Shown here: positions 24,944 to 27,249 of the stretch, one piece after another | How positions within the stretch are numbered: position 1 is the first letter of the stretch | How the letters are laid out: each line of letters begins with the position of its first letter | Assembly: GCF_012932565.1 (NCBI RefSeq) | Contig: NZ_JABBYJ010000003.1 | Location: 62,001-126,000 of the forward strand | Direction: 5' to 3' | DNA from: Sneathiella limimaris | GTDB taxonomy: Bacteria; Pseudomonadota; Alphaproteobacteria; Sneathiellales; Sneathiellaceae | Length of the DNA: 64,000 bases | Notes under the pieces: model-generated | What the model was told of the DNA's origin: nothing | What the model saw: the letters and a program-made list of their open reading frames with translations, nothing else | Databases searched by the model: none | Program-made: the position numbers and the translations under genes

Positions 24944-25960
24944 ATGACGGAAATTTCCATGGAAAACATTGCCACGATGCTAGTCACCAGCAGCAAAGGG
25001 ATTCTCGCTGCCGATGAAAGCACAGGCACCATCAAGAAGCGCTTTGATACAATCAACGTGGAAAGCACTGAAGAAACCCGTCGCGACTATAGGGAACTTC
25101 TTTTCACCGCAGAGGACGTCTCTGATTATATCAGCGGTGTTATTCTTTATGATGAAACAATCCGACAGACTGGTTCTAACGGAATCACCCTCAGCCAAAC
25201 TTTAAGCAGTCAGGGGATTATTCCAGGTATCAAAGTCGACAAGGGTGCAAAACCACTAGCGTTCAGTGATGGTGAATTGGTCACGGAAGGCTTGGATGGC
25301 TTGAGAGAACGCCTTCAGGAATATTATGAACTTGGCGCACGATTTGCGAAATGGAGGGCTGTTATTTCCATCGGTGACGGCGCACCAAGTCAATATTGCA
25401 TTGATGTGAACGCGCAAGCCCTTGCTCGCTATGCCGCCCTATGTCAGGAAGCCAATATTGTCCCGATTGTAGAGCCTGAAGTTCTAATGGATGGCGATCA
25501 TTCAATTGATGAATGTTACGCGGTCACGGAAACCACGCTCAAAACTGTATTTGATGAACTTTATAAGCAGCGTGTTGTTCTAGAACAAATGTTGCTGAAG
25601 CCCAATATGGTTGTTTCAGGTAAAGACTGCCCTGATCAGGCCGGTGTTGAAGAAGTCGCGGCGAAAACAATTTACTGTTTTGAGCAAACGGTTCCTGCAG
25701 CAGTTCCCGGAATTGTCTTTCTCTCTGGAGGTCAATCAGAGGCACAAGCGACTGAACATCTAAACGCGATGAATGCATTGGGGCGTCACCCTTGGGAACT
25801 GAGTTTCTCCTTTGGGCGCGCATTGCAAGCCTCCGCTTTGCACGCTTGGCAGGGAAAATCGGAAAATGTTGGGGCCGCGAAAACAGCTTTTCTCAATCGG
25901 TGCCGCCTGACTAGCCTTGCGAGAGATGGAAATTATTCACCAGATATGGAAAACAACTAG
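24944..25960 (+). CDS. fba: Class I fructose-bisphosphate aldolase
   Basis: 338 residues of the Schiff-base (eukaryotic-like) aldolase family, not the zinc class II type. GILAADESTGTIKKRFD at the N-terminus, FAKWRAVISIGD, EPEVLMDGDH, the lysine-bearing LLKPNMVVSGKDC and FLSGGQSEAQAT. Class I aldolase in this operon is common in Alphaproteobacteria. Confidence 0.96.
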   Translation: MTEISMENIATMLVTSSKGILAADESTGTIKKRFDTINVESTEETRRDYRELLFTAEDVSDYISGVILYDETIRQTGSNGITLSQTLSSQGIIPGIKVDKGAKPLAFSDGELVTEGLDGLRERLQEYYELGARFAKWRAVISIGDGAPSQYCIDVNAQALARYAALCQEANIVPIVEPEVLMDGDHSIDECYAVTETTLKTVFDELYKQRVVLEQMLLKPNMVVSGKDCPDQAGVEEVAAKTIYCFEQTVPAAVPGIVFLSGGQSEAQATEHLNAMNALGRHPWELSFSFGRALQASALHAWQGKSENVGAAKTAFLNRCRLTSLARDGNYSPDMENN

Positions 25961-25995
25961 TCTTGATTTTCTGATCTTTCTGAGGAGTAATTTCG

Positions 25996-26637
25996 ATCGA
26001 CAGCTTCCGCACTCGGCTATATCTCATCTCTCCACCAAAGTTTGAGATACCCGTTTATAAAGAACAACTCAACGCCGCACTTAATGGCGGGGATGTGGCC
26101 TGTTTTCAGCTGCGCTTAAAGGATCAGCCAAAAGATTTTATCCGGCAGGCATGTGAAGAATTAATGCCTCTGGTCCAATCCAATGATGTCGCATTTCTTG
26201 TCAATGATGATCCGGAAATTGCAGCGGAGATGGGCGCAGACGGCGTCCATGTTGGTCAGGAAGATACGCCTTATAAACAGGCCCGAAATATTGTCGGAGA
26301 AGAGGCAATTGTTGGGGTGACGTGCCATAATTCACGTCATCTGGCGATGGTTGCGGCTGAAGCAGGTGCAGATTACGTCGCTTTTGGTGCCTTCTATCCC
26401 ACTCAAACCAAGACACCTAAAACAACTGCAGAACTTGACCTCCTCCAATGGTGGTCGGCCCTTGCCGAAACTCCTGTAGTCGCAATTGGTGGGATAACAG
26501 TTGACAATGCCGCTCCACTGGTTAAAAGCGGTGCAGATTTTTTAGCAGTATCAGGCGGTGTGTGGAATCATCCTGAAGGCCCCGAAAAGGCCGTGCAGGA
26601 ACTGAACAGCGTGATTGATCAGGTTCATAAGACCTGA
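25996..26637 (+). CDS. thiE: Thiamine-phosphate synthase, with non-canonical start
   Basis: Couples HMP-PP and the thiazole phosphate to thiamine phosphate. TIM-barrel motifs: VACFQLRLKD, FLVNDDPEIAAEMGADGVHV (20), GQEDTPY, GVTCHNSRH, YVAFGAFYPTQTK and AIGGITVDN. The first strand, RLYLISPP, is encoded upstream of the first usable GTG (26095), but no ATG, GTG, TTG or CTG exists between the stop at 25981-25983 and that strand. GAGGAG (25982-25987) is eight bases before ATC at 25996, giving 213 residues, the normal family length; ATT at 25990 is the alternative. Start is therefore tentative; the gene itself is clear. TPP serves transketolase in the same operon. Confidence 0.9.
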   Translation: MDSFRTRLYLISPPKFEIPVYKEQLNAALNGGDVACFQLRLKDQPKDFIRQACEELMPLVQSNDVAFLVNDDPEIAAEMGADGVHVGQEDTPYKQARNIVGEEAIVGVTCHNSRHLAMVAAEAGADYVAFGAFYPTQTKTPKTTAELDLLQWWSALAETPVVAIGGITVDNAAPLVKSGADFLAVSGGVWNHPEGPEKAVQELNSVIDQVHKT

Positions 26638-26685: not shown

Positions 26686-27249
26686 ATGAAAATTAACGGC
26701 AATGCAATTCGCCCCGGCAATGTAATCGAACACAAAAACGGCCTTTGGATCGCAGTGAAAATTCAACATACTCAACCCGGTAAAGGCGGCGCCTATCTGC
26801 AGGTTGAACTGAAGAACCTTCGTGACGGAACCAAGCTGAACGAGCGCTTCCGCTCTTCTGAAACAGTCGAGCGTGTCCGCCTGGAACAAAAGCCGTACCA
26901 ATATCTTTACGAAGATGGCGAGCTGTTGACTTTCATGGATGCCAACACCTACGAACAGGTCAATATCTCTAAAGAACTAGCTGGTGATAAAACTCAGTAC
27001 CTCAAAGACGGTATGGATCTAGAGATCGAATTCTATGAAGATGAGGCATTAAATATCTTGCTGCCTGAACATCTGACCTTTGAAATCACTGAAACCGAAC
27101 CAACAGTTAAGGGACAGACTGCTGCGTCTTCCTACAAACCGGCTATGCTGGAAAATGGAGTACGGATTATGGTTCCTCCTTTCTGTGAGGCAGGTGAGAA
27201 GGTCGTCGTTAACACCGAAACATCCGAATATGTAAAGCGGGCAGACTAA
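26686..27249 (+). CDS. efp: Elongation factor P
   Basis: Relieves ribosome stalling at polyproline. 187 residues; KOW-like domain I with the modified-lysine loop HTQPGKGGA (Lys33), OB domains II and III ending [20 protein letters not shown] (20). TolA in this window, with its dense Pro-Glu/Pro-Lys tract, is a plausible client. The final codons and stop lie within an intrinsic terminator. Confidence 0.97.

Follow-up and report, generated by a model that had tools for sequence, protein, structure and literature searches.

The thiE gene of Sneathiella limimaris reaches its natural N-terminus without an ATG, GTG, TTG or CTG start codon, and in ten species of the genus, S. limimaris included, the codon at this position is ATC or ATA. 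We consider it probable that translation begins at this codon with fMet, aided by a strong Shine-Dalgarno sequence and restrained by IF3, giving a low output of ThiE that is uncoupled from the fba gene upstream. The gene was studied within a window, by which we mean the whole stretch of DNA analysed (64,000 nt of Sneathiella limimaris, assembly GCF_012932565.1, contig NZ_JABBYJ010000003.1, positions 62,001-126,000, forward strand). Its neighbours tkt, gap, pgk, fba and efp carry presumptive names, assigned from their translations; fba, thiE and efp stand together in 23 of 23 Sneathiella thiE loci. The features to which we refer are as follows, in window coordinates.

24944..25960, + strand: fba (fructose-bisphosphate aldolase), an ORF call; precedes thiE in the run tkt-gap-pgk-fba-thiE-efp
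25981..25983, + strand: in-frame TGA, read from the sequence, which closes the thiE frame upstream and overlaps the Shine-Dalgarno sequence
25982..25987, + strand: Shine-Dalgarno sequence GAGGAG, its GGAG separated from ATC by 8 nt; -8.1 kcal/mol
25996..25998, + strand: ATC, proposed thiE start codon, from its conservation and the lack of a standard start in frame
25996..26637, + strand: thiE coding sequence, 213 residues and stop, from family match, motifs and AlphaFold model
26014..26028, + strand: codons for residues 7-11, which form barrel strand 1 in the AlphaFold secondary structure; lost with a start at GTG 26095
26095..26097, + strand: GTG, the first standard start in frame, equal to residue 34; rejected as start
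26491..26531, + strand: synonymous-site conserved block inside thiE, from a permutation test in the AUC/AUA clade
26686..27249, + strand: efp (elongation factor P), the next gene, an ORF call

The proposed start codon and its surroundings in Sneathiella

After the TGA at 25981-25983 the frame continues GGA GTA ATT TCG ATC(25996) GAC AGC TTC CGC ACT CGG CTA TAT CTC ATC TCT CCA CCA, lacking any ATG, GTG, TTG or CTG from the stop as far as the first barrel strand. Of ATG, GTG and TTG, the earliest in frame is GTG 26095, as the original prediction had it, and the first CTG lies five codons beyond. Among the 59 conserved genes of the window, thiE is unique in being complete and having an N-terminal extension of more than 30 residues before its first standard start, and in each of the five relatives compared this extension contains no stop and is 42-51% identical. 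A longer extension occurs in one other gene, o0, which the window edge truncates. Nine further genes were flagged with extensions of at most 25 residues, most of them containing stops in some relatives, and the longest of these nine, o67, overlaps the preceding gene in our reading.

The position is conserved well beyond the window. Our sample comprised 24 genomes of the genus, 23 of them with a thiE match (G002 has none), and at this exact codon ATC occurs in six (L001, L004, L007, L008, L009 and L011), ATA in four (L003, L005, L010 and L012), and ATG and ATT in none of the 23. In these ten species the codon stands exactly seven codons before the LYL motif (IYL in L005); AT is invariant, the third base is C or A, the following GA is invariant and the four preceding bases vary, and the first two pairs with a CAU anticodon are kept in all ten. 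The other 13 genes, those of the sister species L006 and 12 further members of the genus, have an ATG 12-13 codons before the LYL motif, that is, 5-6 codons farther upstream, and a different N-terminus. At codon positions 1/2/3 the genes differ pairwise by 0.33/0.22/0.64 over codons 1-32 after the start, by 0.30/0.21/0.62 over codons 34-66, and by 0.60/0.56/0.65 in the ten codons before the start. Judged by these values, a coding signature switches on at the ATC/ATA codon, with none in the ten codons that precede it.

On a tree of Fba+ThiE+EfP (24 rows, with an outgroup from the other genus of the family), two changes between ATG and ATC/ATA suffice: in the simplest case the trait arose once, in a group of 11 species, and L006, the sister of the window genome (support 97/97), went back to ATG. 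Support for the 11-species AUC/AUA clade itself is weak (82/34), and that for the ATG clade is firm (98/97). Since the sister species L006 has ATG, the AUC/AUA trait is not indispensable. The start context of one ATG species, L016, reads GAGAGCAGACCAATG and resembles GGAGCAGACCCATA of L003, which in our reading suggests that the AUC/AUA codon descends from an ATG such as that of L016.

The two groups of species also differ in what lies ahead of the gene. GAGGAG had been described as ideally placed for ATC 25996, and this description holds: GGAG stands 7 or 8 nt ahead of ATC/ATA in all ten species, and the window's Shine-Dalgarno sequence is the strongest among the 23 thiE genes of the genus. 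With the 16S tail CACCTCCTTT, confirmed to be present in the window genome, the best duplex ranges from -5.6 to -8.1 kcal/mol among the ten AUC/AUA species versus -2.9 to -4.4 kcal/mol in the 13 ATG species, without overlap (Mann-Whitney p 5e-5, with species treated as independent). Between the fba stop and the thiE start lie 28-93 nt in the ten AUC/AUA species, 20 nt in L006 and, as computed, 0-10 nt in 11 of the 12 other ATG species; L021, read by eye, has 6 nt. In sequence terms, thiE looks coupled to fba and weakly served by its Shine-Dalgarno sequence in the ATG species, and free-standing with a strong Shine-Dalgarno sequence in the AUC/AUA species. Seven of the ten AUC/AUA species (L004, L007, L008, L009, L010, L011 and L012) have a terminator-like hairpin, CAGGCCTGT-loop-ACAGGCCTG with a U-rich tail, between fba and thiE, and it is missing in L003, L005 and the window genome. 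Covariation in the hairpin is not significant, as 63 of 63 pair cells are standard (100%) but this is equalled by 75 of 500 shuffles. We considered whether the hairpin is a dispersed repeat and rejected this; its exact pattern occurs at the fba-thiE site only, in 2 of 24 genomes. A search of ten among the 23 thiE loci gave no Rfam match at the gathering score, to a TPP riboswitch or to another known RNA.

Proposed initiation at AUC and the probable part of IF3

The infC gene is the textbook example of a gene restrained by IF3. In Sneathiella it starts with ATA in all 23 genomes in which it was found (24 searched; loci L119-L141), following AAGGAG, or GAGGAG in L135, and in 21 of these genomes an in-frame stop immediately precedes it. 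The AUU start of infC, to which the thiE start had been likened, is thus an AUA start in this genus. Read by eye, infC in the Alphaproteobacteria more widely has, at the expected place, 22 ATA, 5 ATC and 2 TTG starts in 29 readable loci (L164-L193; 30 loci taken from 41 genomes, 40 of which matched), some of them with a standard codon nearby. The window genome encodes 41 tRNAs, among them three identical initiator genes, all with the anticodon CAU. A special initiator tRNA was considered and rejected, there being no initiator with another anticodon among the 41.

IF3 is described as requiring Watson-Crick pairing of the first and second bases and excluding weak third pairs (PMC10158994), and AUA and AUC, which make a weak third pair with CAU, would fall under this exclusion. 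Taken together, the CAU-only initiators, this rule and the AUA start of infC make an ordinary fMet-tRNA with a third-base mispair the simplest mechanism. From these observations we infer not only initiation at AUC and fMet as the first residue but also the restraint by IF3, the expression levels and the purpose, in the following way. In the AUC/AUA clade, thiE would have lost the AUG start beside the fba stop codon, and the strong Shine-Dalgarno sequence would make initiation at AUC or AUA possible. Synthesis of ThiE would begin at AUC 25996, decoded by the ordinary initiator fMet-tRNA (CAU) through a third-base mispair, and IF3, whose own gene is AUA-started here, would keep this initiation weak. 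The net effect would be a low, fba-independent output of ThiE from a highly expressed glycolytic operon. That the AUC/AUA start limits ThiE is plausible, and because the rare start has been kept in ten species it is probably a built-in brake on the amount of the enzyme.

The strongest competing explanation accepts the same start codon and disputes its purpose alone. The AUC start may be real but merely tolerated, with AUG lost by drift, the Shine-Dalgarno sequence compensating, and the low output having no role or benefit; we regard this as possible, if somewhat doubtful. The Shine-Dalgarno sequence is stronger in every AUC/AUA species, a difference that could be simple compensation instead of regulation, and a change in the same direction is reported for GUG/UUG switches (PMC5622118). 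ATC and ATA also interchange, and one lineage has gone back to ATG. Nonetheless, the change persists in an 11-species clade with only one return, though A or C to G is a single base. Moreover, ATT is the commonest Ile codon within the ten thiE genes (72 of 124, with 31 ATC and 21 ATA) but never occurs at the start position, and the terminator-like hairpin in 7 of the 10 species suggests a second brake.

Other possible start sites and the integrity of the protein

The remaining alternatives place the start elsewhere. Initiation farther upstream in frame, or entry from fba by frameshift or readthrough, would be compatible with four of the ten species (L003, L004, L008 and L009), in which some standard or CTG codon does lie upstream in frame, albeit at differing places. 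However, the other six (L001, L005, L007, L010, L011 and L012, which include the window genome) have no ATG, GTG, TTG or CTG from the in-frame stop to the start codon, the upstream stops lie at differing distances (5-32 codons), and the codons just ahead of ATC/ATA do not evolve as coding; we therefore judge an upstream start improbable. Even less credit attaches to ATT 25990 or GTA 25987 as the start in place of ATC 25996. Both are in frame in the window, but GTA 25987 overlaps the Shine-Dalgarno sequence, ATT 25990 is just 2 nt from it, and the positions of neither are conserved, whereas that of ATC 25996 is. The original prediction had allowed an ATC or an ATT start, and of these the ATC stands and the ATT falls away.

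A start at GTG 26095, the first ATG, GTG or TTG in frame, would yield a shortened ThiE, and what such a protein would lack makes this very unlikely. The identity of the full-length product is clear: with the frame read from 25984, the match to PF02581 begins at residue 12 and that to TIGR00693 one residue earlier, at 11, the TIGR00693 score of 183 bits exceeds the curated cut-off of 145.1 for ThiE (thiamine phosphate synthase), and the gene is the sole full-length match in the genome, the second match being a 28% partial one. The ThiE motifs QLR-K, ND, TK and IGG are retained (Q38, R40, K42, N70, D71, T138, K139, G165 and G166), and these residues, which we take to be catalytic, are invariant in the ten AUC/AUA species as well as in an alignment of 18 rows that includes other genera. 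In the AlphaFold model numbered from ATC 25996 (mean pLDDT 94.2), strand 1 spans residues 7-11, helix 1 residues 18-29 and strand 2 residues 34-39. GTG 26095 corresponds to residue 34, so in this model a start there removes both strand 1 and helix 1, in keeping with the earlier expectation that the first strand would be deleted. The first downstream standard starts also lie at differing distances after ATC/ATA among the ten species, namely 9, 17, 28, 33 (three species), 38 (two), and 55 or 56 codons, so that most are not homologous, and the codons ahead of GTG 26095 evolve as coding.

Finally, a base-call error or recent mutation of ATG in the window genome alone, the other half of the original prediction, would need only one changed base, but it is refuted by ATC or ATA at the same codon in nine other species and sits poorly with a 3.66-Mb genome in 3 contigs whose completeness is listed as 100%; the rare start is the half that survives.

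Functional context, candidate rare starts elsewhere and the closest known systems

Why a cell might make little ThiE can be considered in light of the pathway. No thiC match was found in 20 of the 24 genomes of the genus, including the window genome, several of the 24 being incomplete, and thiE is kept in 23 of the 24 despite the rarity of thiC. Members without thiC likely depend on an outside pyrimidine precursor. With no thiC match, ThiE probably acts in salvage of the pyrimidine part of thiamine, for which little of the enzyme may be needed. A low need fits a low output but is no proof of it, and the missing thiC match leaves the demand for ThiE uncertain.

The same clade carries a second peculiarity inside thiE. 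The block at 26491-26531 is conserved at synonymous sites with a permutation p of 0.0105 in the AUC/AUA clade, a test that rests on the ten AUC/AUA rows (the L006 row is out of register), versus 0.84 in the ATG clade. In the AUC/AUA clade it reads GGG ATA ACN GTT GAC AAT ... ATT AAA AGC, and it contains a promoter-like arrangement of TTGACA (26501-26506), 16 nt and TAAAAG (26523-26528). The whole arrangement recurs in 10 of the 11 species of the clade, L010 having TCGACA instead, and TTGACA is present in 0 of 12 ATG species. This element may be an internal promoter for efp; a general promoter scan, whose -10 rule requires a final T, did not list it.

We took 80 related thiE loci, of which 75 could be anchored. 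Six of these 75 (L056, L070, L075, L081, L099 and L102) lack ATG, GTG and TTG over 40 codons; CTG is present in three of the six. A further 60 extra-genus loci were taken in rank order after the first 30, minus two from the genus itself, six from genomes already seen and one second copy; within 25 codons, the closest start in these is ATG in 36, GTG in 13, TTG in 2, CTG only in 6, and none in 3. Candidate rare starts outside the genus are ATT in L102, ATC in L075, ATC after GGAG in L275 and L331, and ATT in L320 and L327, but no relative supports any of them: TTG or CTG stands in three congeners of L327, and ATG in two relatives of L102. L070 and L323 have no evident thiE start, and L040 has ATA, but with a TTG six codons upstream. 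In other Alphaproteobacteria, CTG is the sole start-like codon within 40 codons in L230, L238, L248, L249, L251, L056, L081 and L099, and in the last three the thiE CTG overlaps the stop of the preceding gene (CTGA). We think it unlikely, though worth stating, that Alphaproteobacteria repeatedly place thiE under IF3 control (in Sneathiella, in L102, L075, L331 and L327, and possibly in L040). If they did, thiamine synthesis would be tuned by the initiation-fidelity signal that also sets IF3, and thiE would be one of a small number of metabolic genes across the class that respond to IF3.

To our knowledge, few bacterial genes have conserved starts outside AUG, GUG, UUG and CUG, and among the papers listed from the open-licence literature there was no report of an AUC or AUA start of thiE, or of a rare start in Sneathiella. 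Gene finders limited to standard starts miss genes such as thiE here, and Sneathiella is a lineage in which other IF3-limited genes might be sought.

The closest known system is infC, whose start, ATT in E. coli and ATC in Streptomyces, is subject to feedback by IF3 (PMC5472188). Like infC, which uses AUU, AUC or AUA and in this genus AUA, thiE has its proposed AUA or AUC start after a good Shine-Dalgarno sequence. Unlike infC, thiE encodes an enzyme of metabolism that has no role in translation and hence no self-feedback, and within the genus only one clade has the AUC/AUA trait fixed. The sigR gene of Streptomyces, whose GTC start was shown by experiment to be repressed by IF3 (PMC5472188), resembles thiE in that its non-standard start is conserved, follows a strong ribosome-binding site and belongs to a gene distinct from infC; it differs in using GTC rather than AUC or AUA, in encoding a stress sigma factor, and in resting on experimental proof where the case for thiE rests on sequence comparison. 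In Staphylococcus, ccpN (AUA) and cvfC1 (AUU) have conserved starts directed by a strong extended Shine-Dalgarno sequence, and in poor medium their reporters reached about 10% of the output from AUG, with ccpN rising to as much as 30% in rich medium (PMC13009471). These are Firmicute regulators, and thiE is an alphaproteobacterial thiamine enzyme. Sneathiella thiE would thus join infC, sigR and ccpN among the known genes with non-standard starts, and, unlike ccpN and cvfC1, it comes with closely related ATG species for comparison: ten AUC/AUA species set against AUG relatives of opposite Shine-Dalgarno strength and spacing constitute a natural experiment on the retention of a weak start.
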